A stretch of 64,000 nucleotides of DNA. It comes from Deltaproteobacteria bacterium (GTDB lineage: Bacteria > Desulfobacterota > GWC2-55-46 > JADFVP01). Where the stretch lies: NCBI GenBank assembly GCA_029262515.1, contig JAJCZH010000024.1:1-64000 (forward strand), in the 5' to 3' direction. Position 1 is the stretch's first letter, and each line of letters starts with the position of its first letter. Shown here in pieces: positions 11,931 to 19,623 of the stretch. The notes beneath the pieces were generated by a model. It had not been told where the DNA came from and did not search any database. It saw only the letters and a program-made list of their open reading frames with translations. Position numbers and translations under genes: made by a program.

Positions 11931-13190
11931 TCAGACCTTTACCGGCTCTTCGGCTCTGCCTTCCGCCTCAACCAGAGAATCGAACTCAGAGAGTTTCGCA
12001 TTTATGACAACCGGCTCCACAAGATGCCCTTTTAGCGCCTCCTGGGTCTTGAGTCCGTTTCCGGTAATGGAGATAACTATCGATTCGTCTCTTGGGATAC
12101 GCCCCTGCTCGATAAGTTTCTTGGTAACACCGAGCGTAACCCCGCCAGCGGTCTCGGCGAAAATCCCCTCGGTCTCGGCCAGAAGCTTCATCGCCTCTAC
12201 TATCTCGGCGTCTGTCACCTTCTCGCCCCAGCCGTTGCTCTCTTTTATTGCCTTGCATGAGTAGAAGCCGTCGGCTGGGTTACCGATAGCGAGCGACTTG
12301 GCGATCGTGTCGGGCATTACCGGTTTAATCAGTTCGGTATCTTCGAGCACCGAGTTAACTATAGGAGAGCAGCCTGCGGCCTGAGCCCCGTAAATACTGG
12401 ACTCCACATCGCCTTCTATAATACCAAGGGCGTTTAGTTCCTTAAACGCCTTCCATATCTTGGTTATCAGCGACCCGCCGGCCATAGGCACGATCACGTG
12501 CTTCGGGTACCTCCACCCTAGCTGTTCAGCAATCTCGTACCCGAAGGTCTTGGATCCCTCTGCATAATAAGGCCTCAGATTAATATTTACAAAACCCCAA
12601 CCGTACTTGCCCGCAATCTCGCTACAGAGGCGGTTAACCTCGTCGTAAGTCCCCTTTATGCTGACAACCTTTGCACCGTAAACAAGCGTACCGGTTATTT
12701 TCGTCTGCTCAAGGTCATGCGGTATAAAGACAAAACTCGGCATGCCGCATGCAGCGGAATTGGCAGCAACGGAATTCGCGAGGTTTCCGGTAGACGCACA
12801 GGCTATTGTATCGAAACCCATTTCGCGCGCACGAGAGACCGCAACAGAAACGACCCTGTCCTTAAACGATAGTGTCGGAAAGTTTACGGCATCGTTCTTT
12901 ATATAGAGTTCACTGACTCCGAGCGCAGCCTCAAGGTTCGTTGCCCTTATAAGCGGCGTAAAACCGGACTGAAGGCCTACGCTAGGCTCCCCATCTATAG
13001 GAAGGAGCTCGCGGTAGCGCCACATGTTTGGTTTTCTCGACTCTATCACCTCACGGTTCAGAACCGTTTTTATCTTATCGTAATCGTAATCGACCTCAAG
13101 GGGGCCGAAACAGAGTTCACATACATGCAGCGCCTCCTCTGGGTAGACCTTGGAACACTCTCTGCACTTAAGGCCCTTCATATAACTCAT
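11931..13190 (-). CDS. Threonine-synthase-like PLP enzyme heading the SAM-riboswitch operon
   Basis: This 419-residue protein is a fold-type II PLP enzyme with an N-terminal zinc-ribbon-like segment (CRECSKVYP and CELC), a PLP lysine in LSFKDRVVS, a STGNLANSVAA loop and a late ITGNGLK motif. Family members make threonine from O-phosphohomoserine; close relatives make cysteate or act on other beta/gamma substrates. A second, conventional thrC lies in the hom operon at 57848-58924, so this copy probably does something else. It is the first gene after a SAM-I riboswitch and is followed by sulfite reductase, TusA and a sulfur carrier. A homocysteine-forming role from O-phosphohomoserine is an attractive but untested idea. 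ATG at 13190, AAGGAG 8 nt upstream. Confidence 0.82.
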   Translation of the reverse strand: MSYMKGLKCRECSKVYPEEALHVCELCFGPLEVDYDYDKIKTVLNREVIESRKPNMWRYRELLPIDGEPSVGLQSGFTPLIRATNLEAALGVSELYIKNDAVNFPTLSFKDRVVSVAVSRAREMGFDTIACASTGNLANSVAANSAACGMPSFVFIPHDLEQTKITGTLVYGAKVVSIKGTYDEVNRLCSEIAGKYGWGFVNINLRPYYAEGSKTFGYEIAEQLGWRYPKHVIVPMAGGSLITKIWKAFKELNALGIIEGDVESSIYGAQAAGCSPIVNSVLEDTELIKPVMPDTIAKSLAIGNPADGFYSCKAIKESNGWGEKVTDAEIVEAMKLLAETEGIFAETAGGVTLGVTKKLIEQGRIPRDESIVISITGNGLKTQEALKGHLVEPVVINAKLSEFDSLVEAEGRAEEPVKV

Positions 13191-13444: not shown

Positions 13445-13557
13445 CTTCTTATCTTCCAGGGCCAATTACTCCCTGCTGGATTTAGCACCTGACGTACTTT
13501 AACGTACCGGTTGCTGTGGTTTCAACGGGCCAGTCCCTCAACCACTCGGGATAAGAA
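13445..13557 (-). promoter_or_regulatory. SAM-I (S-box) riboswitch
   Basis: Read on the minus strand the aptamer has P1 TTCTTATC paired with GATAAGAA, the highly conserved GAGGGACTGGCCC, then TGAAACCACAGCAACC, and GGTGCTAAATCC before the closing helix. This matches the classic S-box core block by block. It lies 19 nt after the predicted transcription start and directly before an intrinsic terminator, so high SAM should shut off the downstream sulfur genes. Confidence 0.95.
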
Positions 13558-13582: not shown

Positions 13583-13611
13583 AATATAATACAAGTTTGG
13601 TGGCATGTCAA
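13583..13611 (-). promoter_or_regulatory. Sigma-70-type promoter for the riboswitch operon
   Basis: TTGACA (complement of 13606-13611) and TATATT (complement of 13583-13588) are separated by exactly 17 nt on the minus strand. The predicted start lies just ahead of the SAM-I aptamer. Confidence 0.8.
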
Positions 13612-13647: not shown

Positions 13648-14907
13648 CTAATCTTCACCATCACCCGCAGCTGCCTCTGGTGCAGCAAACTCGGCATAGC
13701 TTAAACGTCCGAGAAATTGTTCGCTTGTGCTTGCGAGCAGGTCAACCGTGATGATATGCTTCCCTGCCGGCACCTCTACTTTAAACCTGTCGCGGTCACC
13801 GACAACAGCGTCGGCAAATATCGCATCCGGTTCAGGAGACGCTTTAAAACTCTTCCATGTAAACGGCTCTCCGTCAAGACCTACCTCTACTACATATCTG
13901 CCCGGCTTTACAGTACCGGCCGGCATCAGAAGCCGCACGTCGATTCTCAGAGTCGTTGGACCGTATATGTTAATTTCGAGCGGAGCACCCTTTGAGGATA
14001 TCCACCAATTCTGTTGCCTGACAGGCAGTTGCAGTACCACCTTCTCTGCGTATAACGGAGTCTCTATTGCCCAGGTAATCTTTGCAGTTTCAGTTGCAGA
14101 ATAGTTTCCTATAAGCAGACCTGCAACGAGTACCAGCGCTACCACAACGGCAAGAAGAAGATACTTGGTTCTCCTCCAGTGAATACTCCTCTTCCAGTGC
14201 CCCTTCTCTATTGCGGGCAACACGACTTTCTGGGCACGCTCATAGTCGTTCGGAAAGTCTATTTCAGTCCACGGCATGCCGGCTACATTCAGCGCCTTTA
14301 TTTCAACCTCGGTACATGCAGATCTGACCCCCTCAATAACCCAGGAGTTAACGGCTCCGCTCTCTATCAGAGCGTTTGCTCTTGAAAAGAGTGCGTGTGT
14401 CCCCTGGGTATCGAAACACAAAAGTCCAAGACTCTCCCCCCTCGAAAGTTCCGGCGCCAGATCTTTACCAAGATCTATAACCTTACCCTCGCTGACCGCA
14501 ACCTTCGTCTGCTCTTTACCCTTTGAGGAGGTCGAGTCGAAAGCGAGACCATTTCCGCCTTTGGACAGCAGGCGATCGAGTATCTCGGGATCAAACAAGA
14601 GGTCGCAGTTGAGCAGAACAAACGGGCCCTTTACCCAGTCGCGCGCCATCCATAGCGAATAGAGGCTGTTGGTTTCAGCATAGCGCGTATTCTCGATAAA
14701 CTCTACCCTGTGGCCGAGCACCTTTCTGACTTCATCCGCCTTATGTCCGACGACGACAAGTATCTTGCCAACCCCGGCATCATGTAACGCTTCGAGCTGA
14801 TGCTCCACCAGAGGGCGACCGCCTATAGGAAGCAGGCACTTCGGAAGCCCTCTTGAAACGCGCTCAAGCCTGCTGCCATAACCTGCTGCGAGTATTACCG
14901 CTTGCAT
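13648..14907 (-). CDS. Sugar/choline-phosphate nucleotidyltransferase fused to a membrane anchor and extracytoplasmic domain
   Basis: The N-terminal 235 residues form a nucleotidyltransferase: AVILAAGYGSRL, LPKCLLPIGGRPL, NTRYAETNSLYSLW and LLNCDLLFD. This pattern is closest to LicC-type phosphocholine cytidylyltransferases. A basic stretch (KRSIHWRRTK) precedes one membrane helix (about 243-262, LLLAVVVALVLVAGLLIG), followed by about 155 residues of beta-rich, presumably periplasmic, sequence with no recognised family. Total 419 residues, well above the usual 230-260. ATG at 14907 with AAAGG 7 nt upstream. It follows the ABC gene by 63 nt in the surface polymer cluster. Confidence 0.82.
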   Translation of the reverse strand: MQAVILAAGYGSRLERVSRGLPKCLLPIGGRPLVEHQLEALHDAGVGKILVVVGHKADEVRKVLGHRVEFIENTRYAETNSLYSLWMARDWVKGPFVLLNCDLLFDPEILDRLLSKGGNGLAFDSTSSKGKEQTKVAVSEGKVIDLGKDLAPELSRGESLGLLCFDTQGTHALFSRANALIESGAVNSWVIEGVRSACTEVEIKALNVAGMPWTEIDFPNDYERAQKVVLPAIEKGHWKRSIHWRRTKYLLLAVVVALVLVAGLLIGNYSATETAKITWAIETPLYAEKVVLQLPVRQQNWWISSKGAPLEINIYGPTTLRIDVRLLMPAGTVKPGRYVVEVGLDGEPFTWKSFKASPEPDAIFADAVVGDRDRFKVEVPAGKHIITVDLLASTSEQFLGRLSYAEFAAPEAAAGDGED

Positions 14908-14970: not shown

Positions 14971-16686
14971 TCAAGCCTCTTTGCTCTCATTCCACTCGCC
15001 GGGATTCCCTTCGAAACGTACCTTTCCATTTCGAAGCGCTACTACTTTATCGAAGCGCTCAATAAGGATCGGGCCGGGGAGACCTACTATAAGCGTCCGC
15101 CCCGCACCGCATTTGAGAATCTCTTCCAGACTCCGGCGCGCCTTCTTGCCCCTTAGTCCCTGTACCGGATTATCAAGGATCCAGACCGGGGACGAGTCGT
15201 TGAGCAGAATCCCCCCAAGGCGTAGAATACGCGCCTCGTTACGCGATATATTACTCGAACCCACCTTTGTTTTAAGCCCCTTGGAGAAACTCTTTATTAT
15301 CTTTAGCGCCTCTATATTATCTAACGTCACTTCCTGCTCAGAGCTTAACTCCACCGGAGCATCAAACCCGAGAACCTTCCAGACATTAGTCGGCGCAAAG
15401 ACCAGGTCTTGCGGAAGATAAGCTACCCTCGAAGAGAGCAAATTAGAGTGTTCGGTTATGTCTTCTCCGTCCCAGTATATATTCCCTTTATCCGGCGTCT
15501 CCACGCCGGCCAGCAGGTGAAGCAAAGTCGATTTACCTGCTCCCACATTACCCAAAACAGCCACATGCGTTTTCGGCTGTATAAAAAGGTCGGTACGTTT
15601 GAGGCGCGGAGAGTCGCCACGGCCACGCGCAGAATCGAGTTTGACGCGCTCAAAACTGAGGCCTGTTTTAAGCTCAGTAACCGGTTCGCTACCACTATCC
15701 GGCTCCTTCGAACCATTATTCGAATTCAGATAAACGCTGATCCTGTCGGCACAAGCCAATACCTTACCGGACCTTGCGGCCTGGCGCCCAACCTGCACCA
15801 TTCGGCGATGTACGGTAAGAGCGTAAGCAATAAAGATAAAGAGGTCTCCTGGTGCGATAAAACCCTCGGCCACTCCGATTGAACCTATCCAGAGAGCGAG
15901 CCCGACGGCTGAGGCCAGCACAATATGTACATATAACGAAGAGCGCGTAATGAGCTTGGTGGTACGTACCTCTTTGCGCGCACTCGACCAGTTAATCTCT
16001 TCTAACTGAGTATCGAGATCTCCGGACTCTATGCCCTCCTGCAATGCCGTGGCATAGATACCCTCTTTTTTCCGTTGCTTGCTTACATTAGCGGCAACAG
16101 GCTTGGAGGCATAGAGACCTATATAGACGGCGATCAGGCCTGCAACTAAAAATATCAGACCGAGCTGGATCGAGATATAGAGCATGACGATACAGACGAG
16201 CAAGAAGAGCAGCCCGTTTTGCAGACCATGTACTAATATACCGGAGAGGCCTGCCTTAATACGTGCCGAATCACCTATTATCCTCGCTATAAAATCGCCA
16301 GATACCGTTTGCTCTTGCGGCATTGCGCTCGCTCCGCGCACTGCCGCCCCGCGCATATCGTGGACAGTCTGCGCGGCGAAACGCATAATATTAACACGCT
16401 GAATCATCTCAAAGAGGCCGAGACCGAAAGCTATGACCAGGTACGCGGCACAGAACCAGAGCACAGGCTCTCCCCAATCCGGTAACAGATCGACAAGGGC
16501 TCTTCCTCCATGCTCGCTCTTGGGAAAAACCGCCTCTATGACGCCGCGAAGAGGCCAAGGCATCAACAGGCGAAAGAAGACCACACCTAAAGAGGCTAAT
16601 ACTCCCCGTGCAAACCACGACCTGTGCGGCCCACCGTAGGTGATTATGGTCTTGATCGCCCGTTTTCTTTTCTTTGCGGTCCACAT
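14971..16686 (-). CDS. ABC exporter-like protein (membrane domain + degenerate ATPase)
   Basis: The 571-residue protein has the half-transporter layout: six membrane helices in about residues 1-300, then a nucleotide-binding domain. Walker A is intact (GNVGAGKST) and a Q-loop glutamine is present (YLPQD). The remaining catalytic motifs are altered: the LSGGQ position reads ISRNE, Walker B ends ILDN instead of DE, the D-loop reads VQGLR, and the switch histidine is missing in LIVGLPG. Hydrolysis at its own site is therefore doubtful; such domains usually pair with an active partner, but none is encoded nearby. Its neighbours suggest export of a surface polymer or lipid-linked unit. Confidence 0.82.
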   Translation of the reverse strand: MWTAKKRKRAIKTIITYGGPHRSWFARGVLASLGVVFFRLLMPWPLRGVIEAVFPKSEHGGRALVDLLPDWGEPVLWFCAAYLVIAFGLGLFEMIQRVNIMRFAAQTVHDMRGAAVRGASAMPQEQTVSGDFIARIIGDSARIKAGLSGILVHGLQNGLLFLLVCIVMLYISIQLGLIFLVAGLIAVYIGLYASKPVAANVSKQRKKEGIYATALQEGIESGDLDTQLEEINWSSARKEVRTTKLITRSSLYVHIVLASAVGLALWIGSIGVAEGFIAPGDLFIFIAYALTVHRRMVQVGRQAARSGKVLACADRISVYLNSNNGSKEPDSGSEPVTELKTGLSFERVKLDSARGRGDSPRLKRTDLFIQPKTHVAVLGNVGAGKSTLLHLLAGVETPDKGNIYWDGEDITEHSNLLSSRVAYLPQDLVFAPTNVWKVLGFDAPVELSSEQEVTLDNIEALKIIKSFSKGLKTKVGSSNISRNEARILRLGGILLNDSSPVWILDNPVQGLRGKKARRSLEEILKCGAGRTLIVGLPGPILIERFDKVVALRNGKVRFEGNPGEWNESKEA

Positions 16687-16764: not shown

Positions 16765-17901
16765 TCAACCCGACGGCTCCTGCTTCTCGGCCTTCAGCGC
16801 CTCTACACTCTCTGGCAGCGTTTCACTCAGGCCTGCAGCATAAAGAACCACACCAGCTACGTTCTCGGTAGCAGAACCCGGGGCATGGAAAATATGGCTA
16901 GCCATTGTACGCCTAATCTCAGACTCACGGTCCGGGTTGGCAAGACTATCGGAAATCGCATAAACAAGATTGTCTGACTTGGCGACGATACTGCCTATCT
17001 TTCTTCCATAGGTGTCGAGATCGAGATTCGGGGCACGCTTTTTTAGCCGTTTGAAAAGTTTAGGAATATCGATAAAGATTATCGGACGATCCATAAGCGT
17101 ATACTCAACGGCAACAGAAGAGGCATCCGTAATCAGTAGATCGGCGGCATGAAGATACGGTATTATATCTTTATCCTTTACAATACGCACCTTATCGGAC
17201 TCAAACGGCGCAAGCTCTGTAAACCAATCAACAACCTTCTTTGGGTGATCGTGCGGTTTCACAAGCAGGTTCCACCTGCCCGCCTCGGAAATAGCCTTAA
17301 CCACCTCAATACCCATGGTATCTAGAGCATTGTGCTTCTCACCGGTTGGAGCGAAGAGTAATGTTGGCAGCTCAGGCGACAGGCCTAACGATGTTAAAAG
17401 AGCGTCTCTATCCAGTTCGCCAGAGACGAGCGAGTCTATCTTTGAAAACCCGGTCAACAGGCACTTCGATCCGTCGTCCGTAATAAAACCGCTCTTGCGA
17501 TAAAGCTCGGCATGGTATCTGCCCGGCAGACAGAGAAGATCGTAGCGCAGAGCCTTGTCCCTGACAGCGAGATTCTTAAAGGAGACGCCGTGGAATATCT
17601 GCACGGTAGTTCCTACGGATTTTGGAAAGAGAGTGTCGGAAAGGTGCGCAGAAACCAGTACGTCGAAGTGCTCGGCGCGGACACTCTCTACCGGTATTAC
17701 GCACTTCTGATCGATCGGAAATTGGTCGTAGAAACCGTCCAGGCAGAAGGTGACCTCACCTGCTTCATCTGTCTTCTTGAAACCACCCGACACAAAGAGT
17801 TCGACACGCGGATCTTTAGACAGTCTCTGAAAGACCGGCAAAAAACAGACAAAGTGAATAGGTGCGTAACCGGTAAAGAGGATCCTCTTTTTTGTTTTCA
17901 T
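16765..17901 (-). CDS. CDP-glycerol:glycerophosphotransferase-like (TagB/TagF family)
   Basis: The 378-residue protein shows the Glyphos_transf family pattern: FHGVSFK, LLFAPTGEKH, LVKPHDHP and ITDASSVAVEYTLMDRPIIF, with the histidines used for catalysis in TagF-type enzymes. These enzymes transfer polyol or sugar phosphate units to lipid-linked or surface glycans. No full poly-repeat polymerase extension is present, so it may add one or few units. It lies between a beta-barrel gene and the ABC exporter, and with the LicC-like enzyme suggests a phosphodiester-decorated surface glycan. Confidence 0.85.
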   Translation of the reverse strand: MKTKKRILFTGYAPIHFVCFLPVFQRLSKDPRVELFVSGGFKKTDEAGEVTFCLDGFYDQFPIDQKCVIPVESVRAEHFDVLVSAHLSDTLFPKSVGTTVQIFHGVSFKNLAVRDKALRYDLLCLPGRYHAELYRKSGFITDDGSKCLLTGFSKIDSLVSGELDRDALLTSLGLSPELPTLLFAPTGEKHNALDTMGIEVVKAISEAGRWNLLVKPHDHPKKVVDWFTELAPFESDKVRIVKDKDIIPYLHAADLLITDASSVAVEYTLMDRPIIFIDIPKLFKRLKKRAPNLDLDTYGRKIGSIVAKSDNLVYAISDSLANPDRESEIRRTMASHIFHAPGSATENVAGVVLYAAGLSETLPESVEALKAEKQEPSG

Positions 17902-17982: not shown

Positions 17983-19200
17983 TTAAAAGGTGTACGCCAC
18001 GACTGCGGAAAGTTCGTGCTTGGAGTACGACTTGGTTTCAGCCTTGTCGGTACCGGCAAGCGCATCCCTTCCGGCGCTCTCCTGCGTCCATCTCCATCCG
18101 AGACCGAGCGAGAGGTCTTTTGTAAGCATCTTATCGGCGCCGAGGCCTATCCTGTGACGCACGTCGTTACGGTCGAGACGGGTTATGTCATAAGTCTCAC
18201 TCGATTTGTAGTTCTGGAACCGGAGATCATACTTGGCATAACCGTTCCACCCGTCACCTAGATCTGAGGCGGCCTTTACCGAGAAGGTATGCTCGTTACG
18301 CGAACGGTCTACCGTCTGCACGGTTCTTGCATCAGTATCGGTCGCATCGGCGTCGCCATTGAGAATTACACCGAAATCATTCTCATTACGAATAAGAACT
18401 TCGGTGCTAACAGGCGTATCTATCGCCTCAAAAAAATAACCGAAAGTCAGGTCCACTCCGCTATCGAGCGGCATATCGAAGTCTGCGCCCAACAGAATGG
18501 AATCTTCACTTCGGTTGGAAAAGGGGGCTTCATGCTCCTTACTCCCCAACCCGACTATAAACTCTGCATCAACACTTTTAATACCCAGGGCTCCGCTCCC
18601 GGTATTGCCCTTCCATAGCCGTTTGCCGTACGTAGCAGCTATGGAGTACGTGTCATAGTGAGCTGCCTTATAGACCCTCTCGGCCGCACTGATATCATTA
18701 CCCACATCAACACCATCTACAGCATCGGACAGGTAATTCTTAGCAAAAACATCCGGCGCATACGCAAACTCAAGACCGATAGAACTCTTACTGCCGAGGT
18801 TCTGCTTTATATCCAGAGCGAAATCTGCATGGTTCTTCTCACTATTCTGGGCATAAAGGTTATAGGTGATACTCGGCTTGAGGCTAAGATTGAGCCCGTT
18901 AAGGCCCTTGCCTTTCAAGGCGATTTTAAGAGCCGGGGAGATTATAAGGTCGCTCGTCGACTCCATATCCGTAAAGCGGCCGCTGGTAACGTCATCAGGG
19001 TCATTTGAATCATACCTGTCTGTCTGAGTGGCCGACAACTTATAGATATTAGAGTCGTATGTGAATTCTGTCCTGACATCGGTCTTCACCTTCCAAGAGC
19101 CGACCTCTGCTGCTGCGGCATCCGTACCGATATTGACAAAACCGAATAGGCAAACGCCTACAATAATACCTTTTAAAAGACCTCTTTTTCCTGTAGTCAT
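17983..19200 (-). CDS. Outer-membrane beta-barrel protein
   Basis: The 405-residue protein starts MTTGKRGLLKGIIVGVCLF, a signal peptide with an AAAA cleavage region, then TDVRTEFTYDSNIYKLSA, a sequence typical of the first strands of BBP2/EpsL-like barrels. Alternating hydrophobic strands run through the protein and it ends in aromatic F (LSAVVAYTF), the usual insertion signal. The ATG at 19200 follows AAGGAG at 7 nt; an upstream in-frame extension to 19281 lacks a ribosome site. It leads the polymer cluster, so it may be the exit channel or a cell-surface partner. Exact function unknown. Confidence 0.82.
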   Translation of the reverse strand: MTTGKRGLLKGIIVGVCLFGFVNIGTDAAAAEVGSWKVKTDVRTEFTYDSNIYKLSATQTDRYDSNDPDDVTSGRFTDMESTSDLIISPALKIALKGKGLNGLNLSLKPSITYNLYAQNSEKNHADFALDIKQNLGSKSSIGLEFAYAPDVFAKNYLSDAVDGVDVGNDISAAERVYKAAHYDTYSIAATYGKRLWKGNTGSGALGIKSVDAEFIVGLGSKEHEAPFSNRSEDSILLGADFDMPLDSGVDLTFGYFFEAIDTPVSTEVLIRNENDFGVILNGDADATDTDARTVQTVDRSRNEHTFSVKAASDLGDGWNGYAKYDLRFQNYKSSETYDITRLDRNDVRHRIGLGADKMLTKDLSLGLGWRWTQESAGRDALAGTDKAETKSYSKHELSAVVAYTF

Positions 19201-19623
19201 AGAAAACTCCTTAACTATTTTTTCCACTCTTAAATTATAATAAAAGCGAAAGACTAAAATATGAGAACTGTAATTTACCATTCATACTATACTAAGTACC
19301 CGAAAGATCACAGTAAAAAAAACGACTCGACCTAAACTGAGATCCTCATCCAGAGTATGCCCCGGACCGTTAAGGTTTCATTAGACCACGGTAAACATAC
19401 AAGCGTAAAGTATCCTGATATAGTACAATTGTACGGAATTATCAAGTGACACCAGCGCTAAAGACTGACACTAACTGACACTATAGTAAAGTATAACAAA
19501 AAGCACCCAGGAGAGTACGTGACTTAAGTCCGGTGCGCAAAAATCACGATTTACCTGTTTGCATCTGCTTATCTACTATGATACGCTGATAAGAATACTA
19601 AACTGAAAGGTAGGATATTTAAA
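19201..19623. other. Divergent intergenic region
   Basis: This 423-nt region separates the minus-strand beta-barrel gene from the plus-strand lipoprotein. It holds the minus promoter at 19417-19445 and a 215-nt leader. A plausible plus promoter lies near 19550-19585 (TTTACC ... TACTAT). No reading frame of note or known RNA was recognised. Confidence 0.5.
19417..19445 (-). promoter_or_regulatory. Promoter of the surface cluster with a palindrome in its spacer
   Basis: TTGATA (complement of 19440-19445) and TATATC (complement of 19417-19422) are 17 nt apart on the minus strand. The spacer contains the perfect 12-bp palindrome GTACAATTGTAC (19423-19434), well placed to act as an operator. Confidence 0.55.

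Follow-up and report, generated by a model that had tools for sequence, protein, structure and literature searches.

The window, the whole 64,000-nucleotide stretch of DNA analysed here, contains an operon of four genes in the order predicted barrel, TagF-like transferase, ABC-type protein and, last, a nucleotidyltransferase fused to a transmembrane (TM) helix and an outer module. The genes are arranged head to tail, and 81, 78 and 63 bases separate them. In the corresponding operons of three other loci (L036, L037 and L039; loci are designated L and genomes G) neighbouring genes are no more than 150 bases apart or overlap by one base. The features of the window are as follows.

17983–19281, minus strand: predicted outer-membrane beta barrel (alternating-residue excess z 4.1, C-terminal F)
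16765–17901, minus strand: TagF-like polyol-phosphate transferase (PF04464; 58.1 bits, cut-off 22.1)
14971–16686, minus strand: ABC-type half exporter (Pfam ABC_membrane and ABC_tran; motif check)
13648–14907, minus strand: whole fused gene, nucleotidyltransferase, TM helix and extracytoplasmic module, 419 aa (open frame and model)
14254–14907, minus strand: nucleotidyltransferase domain, residues 1–218 (Pfam NTP_transf_3, E 1.3e-19; Foldseek matches to PntC, IPCT and LicC)
14107–14163, minus strand: TM core, residues 249–267 (hydropathy, charge bias and modelled helix)
13687–14079, minus strand: extracytoplasmic module, predicted jelly roll, residues 277–407 (models; matches of profile A2 elsewhere)

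The frame of the fused enzyme starts with ATG at 14907 and stays open until its stop codon at 13648, in agreement with the limits given by the sequence-only reading, to which the minus strand is now added. An AlphaFold2 model of the fused protein, built from a 20-row alignment from which L060 and L077 were excluded because their stretches contained a stop codon, had a mean pLDDT of 91.7 and a pTM of 0.63. It predicts a single continuous helix at residues 219–266 and a separate, compact beta domain at 277–407, with block pLDDT values of 92–97 across residues 281 to 400. Since the pTM is low, the model does not fix how the domains are arranged relative to each other. When the module was modelled alone from four rows, a similar strand set was obtained with a mean pLDDT of 87.4, two of the five models dropping to 68 and 50. 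The hydropathy maximum coincides with residues 249–267 (KD 2.92), with six K/R in the preceding 15 residues and one after the core. In all ten fused proteins compared, the window included, the TM region is the most hydrophobic and its N side is the richer in K/R. Other copies of the module are preceded by apparent signal peptides or a lipobox, as judged by eye. The fold is seen in the model, and the topology in the model and the charge bias; together with the N termini of the other copies, these support the proposal made from the sequence of one TM helix leading to a domain outside, and the structure predicted for that outer part is a confident beta domain.

The fusion itself and the conservation of the operon are evident from the sequences. 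A frameshift, or two proteins in place of one, was considered and ruled out by the intact homologues and by a junction with no internal start backed by a Shine-Dalgarno sequence; the sole internal start with a Shine-Dalgarno-like match is residue 163, within the enzyme domain and away from the junction. A full-length fused protein was found in five relatives when 59 genomes (the home genome and 58 relatives) were searched: two members of the home genus (81 and 77% identity), one further member of the family (61%) and two from different families within the order (61 and 37%). Among the best 80 of at least 561 relatives in named records it was also present in one Gemmatimonadota-labelled and two Planctomycetota-labelled MAGs, and further genomes of the phyla so labelled carry it as well. 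Intact single frames in five relatives of the same order and in other phyla exclude chance or assembly error, and the single fused protein originally proposed is upheld. When 37 enzyme domains were placed in a tree, the 17 intact fused rows, including the window, all fell on one side of a branch with support 98/95; this branch adjoins cassettes whose stand-alone enzyme ends without helix or module. Pairwise dN/dS (Nei-Gojobori) was 0.03 for the enzyme (three pairs, two further pairs being synonymously saturated) and 0.15–0.21 for the outer domain (four pairs, with one further pair saturated), so both parts are under purifying selection. In one genome (G1084; L242:7511–8839, minus strand) the fused enzyme is split across two frames, by assembly error or decay. 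Viral contigs contained eight partial relatives of the enzyme, none of them with a module match.

The nucleotidyltransferase domain matches NTP_transf_3; the outer half had no Pfam or NCBIfam match above cut-off. Foldseek ranks 1–16 for this domain were all PntC (PntC-AEPT), IPCT and LicC chains. PntC-AEPT, IPCT and LicC use CTP. L6, A8, G9, R13, K23, D102, E215 and D217 are among the 11 invariant columns of the 20-row alignment; we take G9, R13, K23, D102 and D217, invariant in 20/20 rows, to be the signature loop, the lysine and the two metal-binding aspartates. The label LicC-like was therefore right at the family level, the nearest solved folds being PntC, IPCT and LicC. LicC, which is specific for phosphocholine, tops the sequence scores yet aligns over residues 2–105 only, whereas PntC and IPCT cover the whole domain, and PntC leads by fold comparison. 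The fused enzyme probably activates polymer building blocks in the cytoplasm. Phosphonate or inositol supply was tried as a clue to the substrate and rejected: the home genome gave no match for PEP mutase and none for inositol-1-phosphate synthase, which argues against these two substrate guesses. The solved PntC-AEPT, IPCT-DIPPS and LicC proteins (PDB 6pd2, 4mnd and 1jyk) resemble the domain in fold and in conserved active-site residues. Two of them are natural fusions too, IPCT-DIPPS being titled a bifunctional membrane protein. To our knowledge, none of the three has been described with a TM helix and an extracytoplasmic beta module.

For residues 266–419, which contain the module, Pfam gave at E 0.1 or better only FAP42_B3 (E 0.026) and PPC (E 0.096), both below the cut-off, and no CBM family. 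By sequence, the PDB gave three matches at E 1.1–1.2. By fold, VIA-align Z scores of about 9–10 were obtained against CBM35/36/6 and related domains, and Foldseek TM by query was about 0.3–0.5, both of them middling values that are common for jelly rolls. Matches to viral structures were weak, and many of these were tail-fibre and collagen-like proteins. BcsB, of the cellulose exporter, would be a parallel as a periplasmic jelly roll in a polymer exporter, and it matched the module weakly (VIA-align rank 43, Z 8.5, rmsd 5.6 over 119 residues, 7% identity). As far as we know, BcsB has no nucleotidyltransferase.

The occurrence of the module was followed with profile A2 in 395, 392 and 336 genomes of three phyla, drawn evenly from larger groups with the centre genome included. 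Among the 395 genomes of the home phylum, matches were found in two, the home genome and G157. Nine matching genomes were found among the 392 of the phylum of G438 (Planctomycetota; G438 is the genome of L047): three with the fused enzyme (G438, G443 and G722), five with a protein in which the barrel family comes after the module and, separately, a two-module protein (G557, G588, G653, G675 and G731), and one, G630 (L234), with a lone module and neither barrel nor PgsB within its 14-kb stretch. The 336 genomes of the phylum of G437 (Gemmatimonadota; G437 is the genome of L046) also gave nine, with the fused enzyme in G437 and seven others (one of them the frame-split L242) and only a fragment in the ninth (L247). 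Reversed-sequence decoys gave 0/2807 matches at E 1e-3 with the module and barrel profiles alike. In G443 a second, stand-alone module (L190:6935–7396, plus strand) directly follows the fused enzyme and has, by eye, a lipoprotein-like N terminus. In G157 the matches lie in a secreted-looking protein of 1878 aa (L137:6115–11751, minus strand), which contains two of them (E 1.1e-7 and 1.3e-4; hhalign probability 95 for one copy). Its gene follows that of a protein of 1402 aa that has weak HEAT repeats and matches PgsB below threshold, and a CapC-like protein of 934 aa is encoded on the other side, two genes away. The cassette barrel was also sought in this giant protein and the idea rejected, since profile-profile comparison with its C-terminal 319 residues gave no match.

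The resemblance to CBM35/36/6 and related domains, and a single helix that could pass a signal across the membrane, would suit a lectin-like or ion-sensing regulator that reads the state of the polymer or envelope outside and tunes precursor synthesis inside. We regard this role as the main function of the module as unlikely: middling Z scores are frequent for jelly-roll folds, and the module also exists without the enzyme, in barrel-fused, two-module secreted-looking and single lipoprotein-like forms, so that export or assembly fits better than enzyme control.

The TagF-like neighbour matches SeTagF by sequence and is short (378 aa). According to PMC5974469 the catalytic residues of TagF are H444 and H584. 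H217 of the TagF-like protein aligns with TagF position 584; H104 is invariant in 11/11 sequences, and the alignment to TagF did not reach the H444 region. Gram-negative TagF-like capsule polymerases, as described in that source, share PF04464, one catalytic-histidine position, the predicted polyol-phosphate transfer and the diderm setting; unlike them, the window has a short, stand-alone TagF-like protein, a linked nucleotidyltransferase and a dedicated predicted barrel. TagF-like matches number three to five per genome in G461, G621, G634 and G678, and TagF-like paralogues lie beside ABC exporters with canonical motifs, and without the nucleotidyltransferase, in L192, L195, L196 and L198.

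The ABC-type protein of the window keeps Walker A (GNVGAGKST) and lacks the signature (ISRNE), the Walker B glutamate (ILDNP) and the H-loop histidine. The same three motifs are gone, with varied replacements, in L035, L036, L037, L039, L047 and L048, and all three are also absent from the ABC protein of L051 and the family copy of L188. L049 retains an LSxGE signature and lacks the glutamate and histidine, L191 retains the glutamate and lacks the signature and histidine, and in L242 the glutamate is the sole motif missing. L046, L190, L240, L241 and L243–L246 keep both the glutamate and the histidine, together with a complete or almost complete signature; the ABC frame of L052 stops before the ATPase domain. 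The degraded ATPase domain has a dN/dS of about 0.10 (two unsaturated pairs), still indicating purifying selection. Since the hydrolysis motifs of the window protein are lost, it is unlikely to be a simple exporter driven by ATP. The home genome encodes at another place (L250) a half exporter with the canonical motifs LSGGER, LLILDEAT and IAHR, which could be its partner. None of the four operon proteins had a Pfam match to a polysaccharide-export family.

The first gene of the operon, whose true start may lie downstream at 19200, had no database family above threshold and no PDB match by sequence. A home-made score of alternating hydrophobic stretches gave z 2.8–6.7 in 10/10 members of the barrel family, against at most 0.2 in four controls, and a C-terminal F is present in eight of the ten; the module-fused barrel of L236 reached only z 1.5. 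The barrel was found in all 11 fused loci with contig room (the window, L036, L037, L039, L046, L048, L190, L242, L244, L245 and L246) and in none of the ten loci where the enzyme lacks the module, lies next to a TagF-like gene and has at least 3 kb on either side (L049, L052, L188, L191, L199, L200, L201, L202, L203 and L205), a difference with Fisher 2.8e-6 over rows that are not independent. With the module-less loci restricted to those having the family ABC gene (L049, L051, L052, L188 and L191) the barrel count was 0/5 (Fisher 2.3e-4), and collapsing by hand to four versus four lineages gave p = 0.029. Six of the 11 barrels were used to build the first barrel profile, which found that of L190; those of L242, L244, L245 and L246 were found by a seven-row version, so that five of the 11 are independent of the profile that found them. 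When whole genomes were searched with the single sequence of the window barrel, no barrel turned up in those of L049, L051 and L052, nor in the 3.1-Mb genome of L047, a fused case whose contig starts just ahead of the TagF gene; this search is weak, as two true barrels scored only 0.0087 and 3e-5.

The TagF-like surveys listed 34 and 16 places, and wider neighbourhoods were taken for 20. Left out of the fused count were L035, L038, L047, L187, L240, L241 and L243 (contig edge) and L247 (fragment). Among the module-less loci, L189 and L204 were left out for lying at a contig edge, L173 and L176 for their shortness, and L051, which has no barrel, for having only 2.9 kb on one side. L050, where no TagF-like gene was found, and L192–L198 and L206, where a TagF-like gene but no enzyme was found, were left out as well.

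In five genomes of the Planctomycetota phylum (L235–L239) the module and the barrel family are joined in one frame, with profile scores of E 6e-7 to 1e-11 for the module and E 3e-10 to 4e-22 for the barrel. A match to PgsB, the poly-gamma-glutamate synthase, lies near the module-barrel gene in 5/5 of these loci (E 8e-31 to 2e-38), an association counted from the module-barrel genes outward. Nine proteins of these loci were scanned, and seven passed curated cut-offs, two as PgsB, three as PgsC and two as a poly-gamma-glutamate system protein; the other two, one module-barrel and one two-module protein, had no family match. As read from the sequences, these direct fusions are stronger evidence than the co-occurrence counts. 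They make the module-barrel protein a candidate outer-membrane component of diderm poly-gamma-glutamate systems. Such systems with PgsB and PgsC are treated in PMC5542703, and in the five Planctomycetota-phylum loci the module-barrel fusion stands beside PgsB; the window differs from them in its synthase, and its home genome has no PgsB above cut-off, the lone match reaching 21 bits over model positions 124–198 against a cut-off of 222.7. A diderm poly-gamma-glutamate operon in Cloacimonadota consists of CapB, CapC and CapA in the Gram-positive order, the outer membrane going unmentioned in the available part of the source (PMC13082233), which suggests that such polymers may not always need the module-barrel device.

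The conserved co-occurrence with the barrel and the direct module-barrel fusions next to PgsB favour, on grounds of association, a role of the module as a periplasmic export adaptor tying membrane-anchored precursor activation to an outer-membrane polymer channel, a reading to which we give about an even chance. Against it speak the non-independence of the co-occurrence rows, the lone module of G630, the L047 genome in which the weak search gave no barrel, and the low score of the L236 barrel. The cytoplasmic domain would make a CDP-linked alcohol or CMP-phosphonate, as its family suggests, and at the inner membrane the TagF-like partner would add the activated unit to a chain that is growing or carried on a lipid. 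The ABC-type protein would provide passage through the inner membrane. The module outside would then take the chain, or hold the complex beside the barrel that the operon's first gene encodes, and the polymer would leave through this barrel. The coupling to export proposed from sequence alone is in this way supported indirectly, through the outer-membrane barrel by co-occurrence and fusions, and not through the ABC protein, whose motifs are lost.

Part of the evidence could suit a simple anchor, with the helix and module doing no more than keep the enzyme close to its transferase and ABC neighbours and the outer part having no partner: the module evolves faster than the enzyme, and module-less cassettes exist. 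The module is nevertheless still clearly constrained, the barrel accompanies every assessable fused locus and in other operons the module is fused to the barrel, and this explanation appears distinctly improbable. It is more improbable still that the cassette makes no long polymer and decorates a lipid or an LPS-like glycan with groups resembling phosphocholine, phosphoethanolamine or aminoethylphosphonate. PntC and LicC among the nearest solved enzymes and the shortness of the TagF-like protein would be in agreement with such decoration, but the home genome lacks a PEP mutase match and the barrel family, common to poly-gamma-glutamate operons, points to a polymer.

Under the adaptor reading the module would serve two kinds of synthase, one making a polyamide and the other CDP-dependent, so that contact with the barrel or with a general, polyanion-like feature is more likely than contact with one specific glycan. 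It may also bind something other than the polymer, its fold matches being common jelly rolls. A wider proposal, which we offer tentatively and consider rather doubtful, is that module and barrel form an undescribed outer-membrane export device of diderm bacteria working on at least two unrelated synthases, PgsBC for poly-gamma-glutamate and the CDP-dependent TagF-like system. In the latter, the enzyme fusion would create a single trans-envelope complex that reaches from precursor activation across the inner membrane to the outer channel; in the window lineage its ABC protein would have lost ATP hydrolysis, and chain growth would drive export. Because the module is welded to the precursor enzyme, the link between activation and export is testable within one protein. 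Enzymes of this type, TagF-like transferases and the concept of a polymer-handling domain in the periplasm are already familiar. Among the open PMC papers listed by our searches, none deals with the fusion architecture in its title or the opening of its abstract, and to that extent the architecture, the module family and its sharing by two polymer systems are undescribed.

Between the operon and a downstream threonine-synthase-like gene (11931–13190) lies a SAM riboswitch (RF00162, 90 bits; 13446–13557, minus strand), accompanied by a promoter-like site at 13611–13583 (11/12). The riboswitch belongs to the downstream gene and not to the fused enzyme.
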